NCBI GenBank assembly: GCA_947458265.1
Contig: CANGYF010000006.1
Coordinates: 163,605 to 227,604 of the forward strand
Source: Betaproteobacteria bacterium
Lineage (GTDB): Bacteria > Pseudomonadota > Gammaproteobacteria > Burkholderiales > CAIKXV01
Direction: 5' to 3'
DNA: 64,000 bases
Numbering within the stretch: position 1 is the first letter of the stretch; each line of letters begins with the position of its first letter. A program made the position numbers and the translations under genes. The notes under the pieces are model-generated. The model did no database searches. It was not told the origin of the DNA and saw only the letters and a list, made by a program, of their open reading frames with translations. This document shows, one piece after another, positions 6,447 through 64,000 of the stretch.

Positions 6447-7127
6447 TCAGGCGTTCGGCTTGGGCCGGCGCGAGATGCTGGCCATCCCCAGCAGGCCGGC
6501 ACCGAACAGCCAGGCCGCTGCCGGGATGGATACCACCGAGGTGGTGCGTTCATCGAAACCGACGGTGAACCCGAAGTAATTCTCGCGGACCGGATTGGTC
6601 CAGGAAATCGACTGGAAGGTGCCGTAGAAGATCACCGAGCCGTTGCGCTCGCCGGTGCTGCCGGTCAGGTTACCGACCACGTTGCCGCTGACGCCGATCG
6701 GGCTGCCGCGGTACTCCAGCGACGGGCCACCATCCACGAAGGTCGGCACCTGGTCGAACGTGAAGTTGGCGCTGTTTCTGGGCTGGCCGAGGCTCCAGAT
6801 GGCGAACACCGGGTTGAGCACCGCCTGCGTGAAGGTGATCGTGTTCCGGTTGGTGTTGCCGCCGGTCAGTGTCCGGATCGCCGAGCCGGCGACCGGTGCG
6901 TTTTCGATCACCACGCCATCGGCCCAGGTCGTCACCGGCTGCCAGTTGCGCGGGTCGAGATCGAGTCTGCCGGACTGTCCCGTGAACGAGATGCCGACTG
7001 CCCCGGCGTTGGCAGACGAGGCCGTGGTCCAGCTCGCCCAGCTGACGATCGCAGCCATCGCGGGCGATGTGGACAGCGCGAAGACTGCTGAAATCGAGGC
7101 AACTTTGAGAAGTGACGATGCGTGCAT
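6447..7127 (-). CDS. PEP-CTERM-like sorting domain protein
   Basis: Signal peptide (MHASSLLKVASISAVFALSTSPAMA) and C-terminal SIPAAAWLFGAGLLGMASISRRPKPNA (Pro motif, TM helix, Arg cluster). Confidence 0.85.
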   Translation of the reverse strand: MHASSLLKVASISAVFALSTSPAMAAIVSWASWTTASSANAGAVGISFTGQSGRLDLDPRNWQPVTTWADGVVIENAPVAGSAIRTLTGGNTNRNTITFTQAVLNPVFAIWSLGQPRNSANFTFDQVPTFVDGGPSLEYRGSPIGVSGNVVGNLTGSTGERNGSVIFYGTFQSISWTNPVRENYFGFTVGFDERTTSVVSIPAAAWLFGAGLLGMASISRRPKPNA

Positions 7128-7292
7128 GGCGCTCTCTGATCGGTCGGCCGTTCGCGGCAAGGAATCGTGCTCCACGGCGCCGGTGAATTACAGCATTGTG
7201 CCAAAGTATGGCCGGTTCGTGTCGCGCAGTCGGTGATTCATGCCCCGCGGCAACAGTTCAGTAACGCACGCCGGCACCGCTGCGCGCGCCGT

Positions 7293-57894: not shown

Positions 57895-58083
57895 ATGGCT
57901 GCCAAGAAGCCCGCGAAGAAAGCTGCAAAGAAAGTTGCAAAGGCGCCCGCGAAGAAAGCTGCAAAGAAAGTTGCAAAGGCGCCCGCGAAGAAAGCTGCAA
58001 AGAAAGTCGCAAAGAAAGTTGCAAAGGCGCCGGCGAAGAAAGCTGCAAAGAAAGTCGCAAAGAAAGCCGCCAAGAAAGTCTAG
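57895..58083 (+). CDS. histone H1-like Lys/Ala/Pro-rich DNA-binding protein (62 aa)
   Basis: MAAKKPAKKAAKKVAKAPAKKAAKKVAKAPAKKAAKKVAKKVAKAPAKKAAKKVAKKAAKKV; preceded by AAGGAGAAACACG ribosome-binding site. Confidence 0.9.
   Translation: MAAKKPAKKAAKKVAKAPAKKAAKKVAKAPAKKAAKKVAKKVAKAPAKKAAKKVAKKAAKKV
57910..58080 (+). repeat. 36-bp tandem repeat array in the H1-like gene
   Basis: CCCGCGAAGAAAGCTGCAAAGAAAGTTGCAAAGGCG at 57910-57945 and identically 57946-57981; third unit 57982-58029 is 48 bp; fourth diverged. Confidence 0.95.
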
Positions 58084-58288: not shown

Positions 58289-59119
58289 TCAGGCCTTCGC
58301 GATCGGGCGAGCCGGGGTCCGCCTCCATGCGAGGCGCATGCCAAGCAGCAGCGCTAGTATTACGCCGTAGAAAACAGGCTCTCGCACGTCGGCCTTCACC
58401 AGCCACCAGTAGTGCAGCACGCCGATCGCGGTTGCCAGGTAGGCAAGCCGATGCAAAGCGAGCCAGCGCCGCCCGCCGAGCCGGCGCACCATGGCATCGG
58501 TCGACGTGATCGCCAGGGGCACCAGCAGCACGAAGGCAGTGAAGCCCGCCGTGATGAACGGCCGCTTCACGATGTCCTTCAGTATGGCGGCCATGTCGAA
58601 GAACTGGTCCAGCCACAGGTAGGTCACCAGGTGCAGGCAACCGTAGAAGAATGCGGTCAGCCCGAACATGCGGCGCAAGCGCAGCAGCCAGTTCATGCCG
58701 GTCAGCCGGCGCAGCGGCGTGATCGTCAGCGTCACCAGCAGCAGGATCAGTGTCCATTCACCCGTCGAGCGGGTGATGAACTCGATCGGGTTGGCACCGA
58801 GACCGCCGGTGAATGCGCCAGCCGCCAGCCGGGCCAGGGGCACCAGCGCGAGGATGAGGGCGAGGCGCCGGATCCAGGCGATCGCGGAAGCGGAGGGCTG
58901 GCGCAGGCGGGCAAGAACCCTCGCAGTACTGGTGCTGCCGGGTGTACGTCCGCCAGGCGCGCCGCGCGAGGAGGCGACTGCGCCCACCCCGTCCGGAAGC
59001 AGGCGGCCCGGGCCTGCAGCCCGGGGCACGCCTGAAGGTGGCGTGCGTGCGGACTGCGGCGGATCCTGGTCAGGCGGCAGCGCGATCTCGCTCGTCGGCG
59101 GGCAGGCTCGCAGCGACAC
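58289..59119 (-). CDS. msrQ: MsrQ-like heme-binding membrane subunit (ferric reductase-like transmembrane domain)
   Basis: [93 protein letters not shown]; 5' end uncertain, longest form overlaps galU. Confidence 0.88.
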
Positions 59120-59978
59120 CGCGAAGGTGCGCGATGAACTCTTCGCTCACATCGGGGTGGCTCATCGCGAAGGCGATGGTCGCCTTCAGGTAGCCGATCT
59201 TGGAACCGCAGTCGTAGCGTGTGCCCTGGAACTCGTAGGCCAGCACCTGCTCCTGCGTGAGCAGCGATGCGATCGCATCGGTCAGCTGGATCTCGCCGCC
59301 CTTGCCAGGGAGTACGTTCGCCAGGTGTTCGAAGATGCGCGGCGACAGGATGTAGCGGCCGACAACACCCAGCGTCGAAGGCGCTTCCGCAGGCTTGGGC
59401 TTCTCGACGATGCCGTCGATCTGGTGCACGTCGTTCAGCGTCGAGCCGCAGCGCACGATGCCGTACTGGTCGGTATCCTCGCGCTCGACGTTCTGCACGC
59501 CGATCACCGAGCGGCGGTAGTAGCTGTAGCGCTCGACCATCTGCGTCATCACCGAAGGCCTGGCATCGATCAGGTCGTCGGCAAGGATGACGGCGAACGG
59601 CTCGTCGCCCACCAGCGGACGTGCGCAGAGCACGGCATGGCCGAGGCCGAGAGTCTCTGGCTGGCGGATGAACACGCAGTGCACTCCGGGCGGCAGGATG
59701 CCGCGCACCATCGCCAGCAGCTTCTGGTTGCCACGCTCTTCCAGCGCTGCCTCGAGCTCCGCGGCCTTGTCGAAGTGGTCTTCGATCGCACGCTTGTTGC
59801 GGCCGGTGACGAAGATCATCTCGGTCATGCCGGCTGCCACCGCTTCTTCGACCGCGTACTGGATCAGCGGCTTGTCGACGACCGGCAGCATCTCCTTCGG
59901 ACTGGCCTTGGTGGCGGGCAGGAACCGGCTGCCCATGCCTGCGACCGGGAATACGGCCTTCGTGATTTCGCGCTTCAT
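59070..59978 (-). CDS. galU: UTP--glucose-1-phosphate uridylyltransferase
   Basis: [44 protein letters not shown]. Confidence 0.97.
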
Positions 59979-60021: not shown

Positions 60022-61440
60022 TCAGCTGCGATTGTAAGTGTCTTCGAAGCGGACGATGTCGTCCTCGCCCAGGTAGGTGCCCGACTGGACCTCGATCAGT
60101 TCGAGCGGGATGCGACCGGGATTTTCCAGGCGGTGCTTCACGCCCAGCGGAATGAAGGTCGACTCGTTCTCGGTAAGCATCACGACATCTTCACCGCGGG
60201 TGACGCGCGCAGTACCGCGCACGACGATCCAGTGCTCCGCTCGGTGGTGGTGCATCTGCATCGAAAGCTTCGCGCCGGGATTGACGGTGATGCGCTTGAC
60301 CTGGAACCGGTCGCCGGTATCGACCGACTCGTAGGTGCCCCACGGACGGTGCACCCTGCGGTGGATCACGCCCTCGGTGCGCTTCTGGCTCTTCAGCTTG
60401 TCGACGATCTTGCGCACGCCCTGCACGCTCTCGCGATGCGAAACGAGGATGGCATCAGGCGTCTCGACCACGACGATGCCATCGACGCCGATCGCGGTGA
60501 CCAGCCGGCTCTCCGAGTAGAAGTAGCTGTTGCTGACATCCTCGAGTACCGTCTGGCCTTCGGTGACGTTGCCATCGGCATCCTTGACGCCGACGTCCCA
60601 CAGCGCCTTCCAGGAACCGAGGTCGGACCAGTCGTAGTCGACCGGTCGCACGGCGGCGAGCGAGGTGTGCTCCAGCACTGCATAGTCGACCGAGTTCGAC
60701 GGGCAGCGCTCGAGCGCCGCCTGCGACAGGCGGGTGAAGTCGAGGTCACGCTGGCCTTCCGACAGGGCCTCGCGACAGGCGGCCAGCATCGCTGGCTGCA
60801 GCCGCTCGAGTTCAGACAGGAACACCTTGGCCGGGAACAGGAACATGCCGCTGTTCCAGAAGTAGCTGCCTTCGGCGACAAAGCGCTCGGCACGGGCCAG
60901 GTCGGGCTTCTCTATGAATTTCGCCACGGCGCTGCAGGCATCGTCGCCTGCCAGCGGCGTGCCGCAGGCGATGTATCCGTAGCCAGTCTCGGCCCAGCGC
61001 GGACGGATGCCGAAGGTCACGAGATGGCCGGCGCGCGCCGCGGGTACCGCCGCCATTACTTCTGCGCGGAACGCCGCAGCATCAGCGATCAGGTGGTCGG
61101 ACGGCAGTACAAGCATAAGGCCGGCGGGATCCTGCGCGACGATGCTGAGCGCTGCGACCGCGATCGCCGGGGCGGTATTGCGGCCCACTGGCTCGAGGAT
61201 GATGTCGCGCGCCTGGACATCGATCTCCTGCAGTTGCTGGGCGATCAGGAAACGGTGGTCATTGTTTGCGAGGATCGTCGGCGCGCAGGAATCCGCAAGC
61301 CCGACGGTGCGCAGGACCGTCGCCTGCAGCAGGCTGTGGTCGCCATGGAACTTGAGGAACTGCTTCGGCAGCGCCTCCCGCGACAGCGGCCATAGACGGG
61401 TGCCCGAACCACCGGACAGGACCACCGGATGAATGCTCAT
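60022..61440 (-). CDS. manC: mannose-1-phosphate guanylyltransferase/mannose-6-phosphate isomerase
   Basis: [71 protein letters not shown]. Confidence 0.96.
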
Positions 61441-61805
61441 GTACAAACCTCGGCTGGTTAGGAATCCTGCATGTCTGCAACTGCCGCCCGATCGCTGGCG
61501 CGGCCAGCCTGCCGGCGTACGGCTGCAGGCATCGACACAGGGGTGCAGAGTCTACGGCGCGGCACGTGCACGTGTACGTGGATGATCGCACTGCACCGAA
61601 GTCCGGTGCACGAGTACGCATCATGCACGGCCGACCCGGACGGGTTGTCCATCTTGCCTTTGACTCGTGTTGAATGACGCCGGAACCATACCAACCTTTC
61701 GCGACTGCACGACTACACGAACGCACGACTGCACGATGGCGTCGTGCGAAGCCGGCACGACGTGCAACGGCAACCACAATCAAGGAACATGCCTGGAGGA
61801 TTGAC

Positions 61806-61832
61806 GGAAAAAAATCGCCCCTGCGGGGCGAT
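61806..61832 (-). terminator. Rho-independent terminator for the PEP-CTERM gene
   Basis: minus strand reads ATCGCCCC GCA GGGGCGAT TTTTTT. Confidence 0.85.
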
Positions 61833-61915
61833 CCTGATGATGCAGTCGCAGCGCGCGGATAGCGCGCCCCTTGGGCAGGGTCGGGCAGATGCCGGTACCG
61901 TGCGTGCGCCTGTGG

Positions 61916-62686
61916 TCAGGCGTTGCGACGACGACGAGCCGTCCAGAGCCCGACAAGCAGACCGGTGCCCAGCAGCGCGGCACTCGGCGGCACCGGGACG
62001 ACGGTGATGAAGTCCTGACTGCCCAAGGCCGGGTTCCCCCGGACGCTGGTCAGCGCGACCAGCTGCGCGGCGGTGCCGGTCGAGGTGAACGAGAGGTAGG
62101 TCGCGGCAAACCCGTCCGTGCCATCAATCTCGTCGGATACATTGGTGTTCAACCGGAAGCCGCCCGCCGACAGCGAATAGGCATTGCCGGGCAACTCGTG
62201 TACCACTTCCCAGATCGCCAGCTGCATCGCGACGGTCTTCGCGGTGCTGGTGAAGCTGTCGGCAAAGCGGCCATCGCCCAGCATCCTGGTCAGGTCATTC
62301 GCCTTGCCGATACCCATGCCGATGCCGCCGTTGATGCTGTTCGGCGCAGATGCGACGACAACCTTGCTGTAGTTGCTGTACTGCGTGCCGAAGGCGAAGG
62401 TCTGGGCCAGTTCGATGCAATAGGAGAGGAACGGGTTGCTCGACAGGTTCGCCTGCTCGGGGCTGTAGAAACCGCTGAAGCCCCCTGCGTTGACGTTCTG
62501 CACCACGTTGTCGGGGCGGGTGACCTGTACCGCCAATGAACTGTTCGCGAAGCTGAACTGCCTGAGGTAGTCGGCATGTGTCGGTGCGCTCGCCACCAGC
62601 CCACCCAGACCGATGACGACACCTGAGGCAGCGGTTGCAAGGCGGCTTCGAAGGCCGGGCGTACCGTGTTCGAGTTTGTCGGGCAT
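61916..62686 (-). CDS. PEP-CTERM sorting domain protein with putative Cys-Gln thioester motifs
   Basis: signal peptide; SYCIELAQTF (Cys90) and VAMQLAIWEVVHE (Gln155); C-terminal VPVPPSAALLGTGLLVGLWTARRRRNA. Confidence 0.88.
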   Translation of the reverse strand: MPDKLEHGTPGLRSRLATAASGVVIGLGGLVASAPTHADYLRQFSFANSSLAVQVTRPDNVVQNVNAGGFSGFYSPEQANLSSNPFLSYCIELAQTFAFGTQYSNYSKVVVASAPNSINGGIGMGIGKANDLTRMLGDGRFADSFTSTAKTVAMQLAIWEVVHELPGNAYSLSAGGFRLNTNVSDEIDGTDGFAATYLSFTSTGTAAQLVALTSVRGNPALGSQDFITVVPVPPSAALLGTGLLVGLWTARRRRNA

Positions 62687-62744: not shown

Positions 62745-63617
62745 TTACCGACGACGACCGTTCGAGGAACCAAGGATGCGCAGCGCGATCGCCTTGCCGA
62801 CGGCCTGTGCGCGATTGTTGGCACCGAGCTTGCGCAGGATGCGCTGCACGTGGTTCTTCACGGTCAAGGGGCTGATCACGAGTTCAGCAGCGATCTCGAC
62901 GTTGTTCTTGCCATGCTGCACCAGCTCGAGGATGCTCACCTCGCGATCCGAGAGCAGGCCAGGTCCCGCCGCCTCGCCGCCTTCCTGGTCGCTGGCCGAA
63001 ACCCGGATCAGCGCGGTATGGAGGTAGGGCACCAGCAGTTCCAGCAAGTACGCGATATGGGTTGGTCGGTCCGTCGGTACGCCGAAGAAGTAGAACTGGC
63101 TGCCGGGGGCCTTGTTGTGGTCCAGCACACCGTGAACCGCACAGGCGCGCAGCCCGAGGCGCATGAGTTCCGAGTTGAACGGCACGTAGCGTTCGCTGCT
63201 CGGGACCAGGACGAGCGGCCGTGCACCACTGCGTAACCAGGTTTCGCCGAGATCCGAGATCAACCCCTTGCCTTCGGCACAGATCTCCTGCAGTACCTCG
63301 TTCGGGATAGGCGAACTGCTGAAGTGATCGATCAGTAGCGCGTTACCTCCGCCATCGATCAGCGTGCACACCAGTAGCCGATGCGGCAACACCGTCTGGA
63401 ACTCGCCTTCCAGCCAGCGGAACATCTGGTTGCGCCGTCGCACATCGACGGCCGACGCGATCGCGCGCAGGAACCGCAGCTGTTCGATCTGGTTCAAGGA
63501 AGGGAGTTCAGGGCTGCGATAACCAGACCCTGGCCGGTAATCGCGCCCGTTTCCGATCGATTTCGGCGCTCCGGCTTCAAGCCATCGAGGGGTTTGCTCG
63601 TACACGGTCGTGCGCAT
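62745..63617 (-). CDS. epsA: LuxR family regulator, EpsA-like (exosortase/exopolysaccharide-associated)
   Basis: C-terminal LLSDREVSILELVQHGKNNVEIAAELVISPLTVKNHVQRILRKLGANNRAQAVGKAI; N-terminal domain resembles EpsA. Confidence 0.8.
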   Translation of the reverse strand: MRTTVYEQTPRWLEAGAPKSIGNGRDYRPGSGYRSPELPSLNQIEQLRFLRAIASAVDVRRRNQMFRWLEGEFQTVLPHRLLVCTLIDGGGNALLIDHFSSSPIPNEVLQEICAEGKGLISDLGETWLRSGARPLVLVPSSERYVPFNSELMRLGLRACAVHGVLDHNKAPGSQFYFFGVPTDRPTHIAYLLELLVPYLHTALIRVSASDQEGGEAAGPGLLSDREVSILELVQHGKNNVEIAAELVISPLTVKNHVQRILRKLGANNRAQAVGKAIALRILGSSNGRRR

Positions 63618-63818
63618 GCTCCATTGGGCAGGTTGCACAGGAAAAGTCGCTACAACCGTGCGCAAACGCCATGCCCGCCATATGGAATCATGTGTTGACG
63701 CGACAATGAAGGAACCGGCACACGTTCGCAGTGTGCAAATTGTCCGTGCAACCCCGCGTTGGGAAGCGAACGTAGCTGTCGCTGCGGCGCGACACCACGT
63801 CAGGCGACACCAGAAACG

Positions 63819-63850
63819 AAAACGCCCCGATCGGGAGACCGGGGCGTTGT
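63819..63850 (-). terminator. rRNA operon terminator
   Basis: ACGCCCCGATCGGGAGACCGGGGCGT hairpin just 3' of 5S on the minus strand, followed by T-rich tract. Confidence 0.75.
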
Positions 63851-63887
63851 GGTCAGGGGCCTGGATGAGGCGCCTGAGGAGGGGAGT

Positions 63888-64000
63888 CTGACGATGACCT
63901 ACTTTCACGCGAAAAAGATCGCACTATCATCGGCGCTGGAGCGTTTCACGGTCCTGTTCGGGATGGGAAGGGGTGGTTCCACTCCGCTATGGTCGTCAGA
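63888..64000 (-). rRNA. rrf: 5S ribosomal RNA, at window edge
   Basis: minus strand TCTGACGACCATAGCGGAGTGGAACCACCCCTTCCCATCCCGAACAGGACCGTGAAACGCTCCAGCGCCGATGATAGTGC...GTGAAAGTAGGTCATCGTCAGA. Confidence 0.95.

Follow-up and report, generated by a model that had tools for sequence, protein, structure and literature searches.

The window, by which we mean the whole stretch of 64,000 nucleotides analysed here, carries on its reverse strand an open reading frame (62686-61916) for a protein of 256 aa, with GGAG at a normal distance ahead of the start ATG. The gene lies directly downstream of epsA, on the same strand and across a gap of ~58 bp, and is followed by two genes of nucleotide-sugar synthesis. 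The features of the locus are as follows:

62745..63908 (-): EpsA, LuxR-type regulator of exopolysaccharide/PEP-CTERM systems (TIGR03020, 194 bits, cut-off 170)
61916..62686 (-): TED/PEP-CTERM gene, 256 aa, with signal peptide, a single thioester domain (TED) and PEP-CTERM (ORF, translation, homologues of the same architecture)
62573..62686 (-): putative Sec signal peptide, residues 1-38, with basic n-region, hydrophobic core and ...APTHA end (by sequence)
62000..62572 (-): thioester-type domain, residues 39-229 (AF2 model, Foldseek, Pfam TED in 26/26 relatives)
62417..62419 (-): codon of Cys90, the predicted thioester cysteine, in a [YFW]C-Φ-[DE] motif (conservation; aligned to the SaTIE-TED Cys)
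62222..62224 (-): codon of Gln155 in MQLAIW, equivalent of the supporting TQxxΦW helix Gln (SaTIE-TED alignment with TQMLIW; helix 148-163)
62210..62212 (-): codon of Trp159 of the TQxxΦW motif (invariant, 45/45)
62015..62017 (-): codon of Gln224 (SQ224DFI), the predicted thioester glutamine, in Q-[DN]-Φ-Φ at the final strand (conservation, model, published TED rule)
61925..61999 (-): PEP-CTERM sorting signal, VPVPPS, hydrophobic helix, RRRR (TIGR02595)
61810..61835 (-): intrinsic-terminator-like hairpin, GATCGCCCC-GCA-GGGGCGATTTTTTT, past the TED gene (MFE -17.8 kcal/mol, z -2.3)
60022..61446 (-): ManC-type mannose-1-phosphate guanylyltransferase/mannose-6-phosphate isomerase (TIGR01479, 694 bits; neighbour kept in relatives)
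59070..59978 (-): GalU, UTP--glucose-1-phosphate uridylyltransferase (TIGR01099, 378 bits; neighbour kept in relatives)

The first-pass annotation had called this product a PEP-CTERM protein, and the call holds: the C-terminal signal scores 17.2 bits with TIGR02595 (cut-off 16), the highest score of any protein in the genome. A signal peptide at one end, a PEP-CTERM signal at the other and an exosortase in the genome are together the attributes of an exosortase substrate, and the 256-aa protein possesses neither the LPXTG anchor nor the stalk repeats of TIE-type adhesins. The two motifs reported for it, YC90IE and MQ155LAIW, are read from the translation at exactly the Cys90 and Gln155 codons listed above. 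In the model of the full-length protein the signal peptide region is of low confidence and mostly unstructured. The terminator-like hairpin is absent from the listing of a pattern-based terminator scan.

The gene order EpsA-TED-ManC-GalU recurs in three congeneric relatives, and in one of these there are two TED genes in tandem. At greater distance the arrangement is looser: in 9 of 18 distant loci the TED gene has an EpsA-like gene no more than 3 kb away (all four such genes that were checked score above the TIGR03020 cut-off), and half of the distant relatives have a TED gene without an adjacent EpsA gene. Genes for a PEP-CTERM-system ATPase or PrsT-like protein occur on the opposite side of the TED gene in several distant loci; the neighbours at the other distant loci checked, where no EpsA stands beside the TED gene, are mostly unrelated. 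Several distant loci likewise carry TED genes in tandem. Tandem TED-PEP-CTERM duplicates beside EpsA-like regulators were seen at L002/L006 (G010:C64), L016, L019, L021, L025 and L026, and such copies suggest a diversification of specificity.

The only exosortase detected in the genome is of the XrtD type (539 bits); it is fused to an EpsI domain and adjoins a glycosyltransferase-like gene (L080, G000:C1:341597-342301). The name of the EpsA regulator family refers to XrtB systems, whereas this genome has the XrtD type. A PEP-CTERM ATPase-like gene is found ~17 kb off on the same contig (283 bits, under the family's strict cut-off of 324.5). Elsewhere in the window, 6447-7175 (-) encodes another exported protein of short length, whose C-terminus, SIPAAAWLFGAGLLGMASISRRPK, resembles a sorting signal (19.8 bits with VPLPA-CTERM, under the cut-off) and in which the TED motifs are absent, and 57895-58083 (+) encodes a short Lys/Ala repeat protein (AAKKPAKKAAKKVAK...) that resembles histone H1/AlgP by eye.

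TED is the best Pfam match of the full protein (E=0.078, under the curated cut-off) and matches the isolated domain at E=0.039; the protein reaches 13.9-14.8 bits against a cut-off of 22 bits, which is a detection threshold and not a structural feature. The same profile (PF08341) matches all 26 aligned relatives at E≤1, and the curated cut-off is passed by two of the ten relatives scanned separately (L013, 26.1 bits; L018, 22.2 bits). The HMM search that had been proposed as a check thus left the single protein below threshold, while its aligned relatives all matched. Against all PDB sequences, a profile of the family returned only two matches at E≤10, the better being SaTIE-TED (6fx6) at a weak E=0.29; in this alignment the cysteine falls onto the Cys of an FC motif and MQLAIW onto TQMLIW. 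Profile-profile alignment to the Class II TEDs of Bacillus plasmids (pLS20) aligned the Cys motif alone. Sequence similarity is weak even among accepted TEDs, since phmmer searches of PDB with the pLS20 TED and with the TED of a large Pseudomonadota protein (L063, described below) gave no matches.

An AF2 model of the domain alone, made with a deeper alignment, attained a pLDDT of 92.6 and a pTM of 0.91, and when it was compared by Foldseek with 350,542 PDB chains, ranks 1-7 were all Gram-positive TEDs (E from 2.4e-4 to 0.13), namely SfbI 5a0l (E=2.4e-4), CpTIE 5a0g (3.8e-4), four chains of 5a0d, and 5a0n; the first non-TED match followed at E=0.73. TM-scores to these TEDs are moderate (0.40-0.50) at a sequence identity of ~13%, and the domain, as modelled, is therefore a distant TED relative. 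A first full-length model (pLDDT 79.9) had no TED among the 50 PDB matches listed, the best of which were peroxiredoxins at E>0.2; we place more weight on the domain-alone model than on this lower-confidence one. The hallmarks of TEDs can be recognised one after another: a β-barrel with a three-helix bundle in the domain model, as in its seven top-ranked matches; [YFL]C-Φ-ζ in the form of YC90IE; TQxxΦW in the form of MQ155LAIW159, with M/F/L/V replacing T and the motif lying within helix 148-163; and the last-strand glutamine of the weak ΦQζΦΦ motif in the form of SQ224DFI, where the residue preceding Q is non-hydrophobic and the bonding role is predicted. Fold, profile and conservation bear out the proposal that an exosortase-type (PEP-CTERM) protein here carries a thioester domain, and, judged from its model and its sequence, the window protein does.

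Residue conservation was assessed in a set of 45 proteins, gathered by HMM searches and pattern searches. Part of the set was found with a whole-domain HMM that makes no motif requirement; relatives found by pattern were seeded on one of the Cys and Gln155 motifs, so that in these the other motif alone counts as free evidence, and Gln224 was part of no search pattern. Aligned relatives are 18-69% identical to the query. Cys90, Gln155, Trp159 and Gln224 are each invariant (45/45), and the residue ahead of the cysteine is Y, W or F. Cys90 is the only cysteine of the 256-aa protein, and in 40 of the 45 proteins the mature domain contains one Cys only.

Among the genomes sampled, 6 of 399 from across the phylum and 21 of 300 from within the order carry the domain of this family, which is patchy even inside the genus (5 of 11 genomes). 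Its members come from Burkholderiales, Dechloromonas, Thiorhodococcus, Marinimicrobium, one Acetobacteraceae genome and one Phycisphaeraceae genome; the viral contigs and plasmids searched contained no relatives. Matches to Pfam TED above the cut-off occur in only 2 of the 399 Pseudomonadota genomes, each time in a large protein. One, from the same class (L063, G430:C1:2038596-2038919), is an open frame of 2052 aa in which a strong TED match (56.6 bits) near the N-terminus is followed by long repeat-rich sequence, and is a Gram-negative counterpart of the large TED adhesins. The other (L064, G139:C2:623091-623420) is a C-terminal TED in a 944-aa open frame with SdrD-like repeats. In one relative (L005, G009:C368) the TED gene is split over two frames, by frameshift or assembly error.

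Which glutamine would pair with Cys90 can be approached through the solved TEDs. In these, the Gln of TQxxΦW sits on the central helix, hydrogen-bonds to the backbone of the cysteine and is dispensable for the bond, and the bond-forming Gln lies in the weak ΦQζΦΦ motif of the last strand (PMC4450167, PMC6194298). In domain numbering (to which 38 is added for protein numbering), the model has strands at 2-8, 13-18, 24-29, 32-37, 48-52, 69-72, 171-175 and 188-191 and helices at 88-97, 102-108, 110-125 and 152-163; Cys90 (residue 52) closes strand 48-52, Gln155 and Trp159 are held by helix 110-125, and Gln224 (residue 186) comes just ahead of the last strand. This order, A-B-C(Cys)-D-helices-P-Q(Gln), agrees with the published TED topology (PMC6194298), and the spacing of 134 residues between Cys90 and Gln224 compares with 129 for the bonding pair Cys138-Gln267 of CpTIE-TED (PMC4450167). 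Because the bonding Gln of solved TEDs is on the last strand and that of TQxxΦW is supporting, the predicted thioester is Cys90-Gln224, the partner being assigned by homology and modelled topology. The first-pass annotation had instead taken Gln155 of the QxAIW motif as the acyl partner. Both residues of that pair are indeed invariant; however, Gln155 stands within a helix in the domain model, and the TQMLIW to which its motif aligns is 54 residues past the SaTIE cysteine, whereas the bonding pair of SaTIE-TED, Cys296-Gln467, is 171 residues apart (PMC6194298). The published rule and this alignment make Gln155 the supporting helix glutamine and lead us to reject a Cys90-Gln155 bond, to which we attach hardly any credence; it follows that the distance between these two residues, put forward as the refuting measurement, concerns the wrong pair.

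We consider it likely that the protein serves covalent coupling to matrix or surfaces, as a PEP-CTERM-sorted TED with a Cys90-Gln224 thioester. The product would be small and exported, with a single Class I-like TED and a PEP-CTERM sorting signal as its parts. On folding, the internal thioester would form between Cys90, where strand C ends, and Gln224, where the last strand starts, with two residues of the central helix, Gln155 and Trp159, lending support. The exosortase, presumptively XrtD as the sole one found in the genome, would process the C-terminal signal, and the domain would be displayed with the exopolysaccharide layer, where the thioester could acylate an amine or hydroxyl nucleophile on a polymer of the matrix, on an adjacent cell or on a surface and so establish a covalent link. 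Bond formation, Gln224 as partner, surface export and covalent matrix capture are what we infer from the features above; a covalent adhesin or an exopolysaccharide cross-linker is plausible as the function, and the neighbouring genes point rather to a role in exopolysaccharide or matrix. Several points speak against the coupling model: the products of ManC and GalU, GDP-mannose and UDP-glucose, by themselves place no amine in the polymer; the protein lacks a stalk domain that would project the TED; EpsA is missing beside the gene in half of the distant relatives; and the likeness to known TEDs is limited, as seen in the moderate TM-scores, the low identity, the first full-length model and the pLS20 alignment.

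The small, stalkless build and the genomic context would also suit a TED fold kept as a matrix module that binds carbohydrate or protein non-covalently, in which the thioester is absent, is hydrolysed early or is an element of folding or stability. We regard this as unlikely: the invariance of Cys90 and Gln224 in all 45 proteins, down to ~18-30% identity, would be difficult to account for if the two residues had no chemical role, and the twelve TEDs expressed in a 2015 study were all ~17 Da light (PMC4450167). A different employment of Cys90, in an intermolecular disulfide, a metal site or lipid attachment, could be imagined for a lone extracytoplasmic cysteine able to dimerise, and is very improbable, given that the sole Cys of the protein makes an intramolecular disulfide impossible (a single mature-domain Cys being the rule in 40 of 45 proteins), that a lipobox is lacking, and that a disulfide or metal site would leave the invariant Gln224 and the TED fold unexplained. 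As to an ordinary PEP-CTERM protein with chance motifs, the weak single-sequence Pfam score and the diversity and fast evolution of PEP-CTERM proteins could be brought forward for it; the invariance of Cys90, Gln155 and Trp159 across 45 proteins shows that the motifs are no chance, and with Pfam TED matching 26 of 26 relatives and TEDs alone among the top structural matches, this reading is refuted, barring a gross error in the AF2 model, and its probability is close to nil.

The PEP-CTERM system was reportedly predicted in 2006, and the role of PEP-CTERM proteins is said to have been open since. The predicted Cys-Gln thioester would provide at least one branch of them with a precise chemistry, covalent coupling to matrix or surface nucleophiles, and hints at proteins sorted by exosortase that may attach themselves through covalent bonds to the matrix or to surfaces nearby. 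A survey of 2015 placed TEDs exclusively in Gram-positive bacteria (PMC4450167), an adhesin survey of 2021 named TED for Firmicutes and Actinobacteria, and one of 2022 added TED clusters with PEP-CTERM and Proteobacteria unmentioned. Our literature search, which covered few subscription papers, found no paper that brings together 'PEP-CTERM' and 'thioester domain', and no published statement on Gram-negative PEP-CTERM TEDs; automated annotation may list some TED-PEP-CTERM members, as some pass the Pfam threshold. The present family would thus extend thioester adhesins beyond Gram-positives, to Burkholderiales, other Pseudomonadota and one Phycisphaeraceae genome, and to a different anchoring system. 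More tentatively, stalkless thioester proteins sorted by exosortase might form an entire class in Gram-negatives, one that links proteins covalently with the exopolysaccharide matrix or with neighbouring cells, and part of the PEP-CTERM/exosortase system might then be a device for covalent matrix assembly, analogous to the sortase-anchored TED adhesins. The likely setting is that of floc- and biofilm-forming environmental bacteria, which gives the matter a practical side in sludge flocculation and biofilm cohesion.

With the Class I Gram-positive TEDs (SfbI 5a0l, CpTIE 5a0g/5a0d, PnTIE 5a0n; PF08341) the window family shares the fold, the [YF]C-Φ-[DE] motif on the strand ahead of the helices, the xQxxΦW helix motif and C-terminal Q-ζ-Φ-Φ at the last strand, an N-terminal placement behind the signal peptide and a Cys-Gln spacing near that of CpTIE. 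It differs from them in its Gram-negative hosts, in a PEP-CTERM/exosortase signal in place of LPXTG/sortase, in consisting of one minimal domain without an isopeptide or ester stalk, in its exopolysaccharide neighbourhood, in MQ or FQ replacing TQ and, for the window protein, in a single-sequence Pfam score under the cut-off. The Class II TEDs (SaTIE 6fx6, BaTIE 6fwv, EfmTIE86, TIEpLS20) have the Cys and TQxxΦW motifs in common with it, and SaTIE-TED is the top PDB match of its sequence profile, whereas the window domain, of only ~190 residues, has neither their 75-residue β-sandwich insert nor the slipknot. Complement C3 and alpha-2-macroglobulin likewise employ a Cys-Gln thioester for covalent capture; this is an analogy only, as their fold and sequence are unrelated to the window TED, and complement-type thioesters require proteolytic activation (PMC6194298). 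The floc protein PepA (NF033554) shares the PEP-CTERM signal and the link to exopolysaccharide and exosortase; its mature domain is unrelated and lacks the conserved Cys, QxxxW and terminal Gln. PepA was considered as a hidden TED relative owing to NF033554 matches with E down to 4e-11, and was rejected because PepA proteins are without the conserved Cys and Gln; the matches of TED proteins to NF033554 are due mainly to the shared sorting signal, and the window protein scores 22.2 bits over its C-terminal 98 residues only, against the at least 80 bits that define the PepA family. When PepA of Aquincola is overexpressed, soluble EPS goes down and cell-bound EPS goes up (PMC9850573), and PepA may therefore be seen as a precedent for the fixing of polysaccharide to cells, by analogy of job and not of chemistry.
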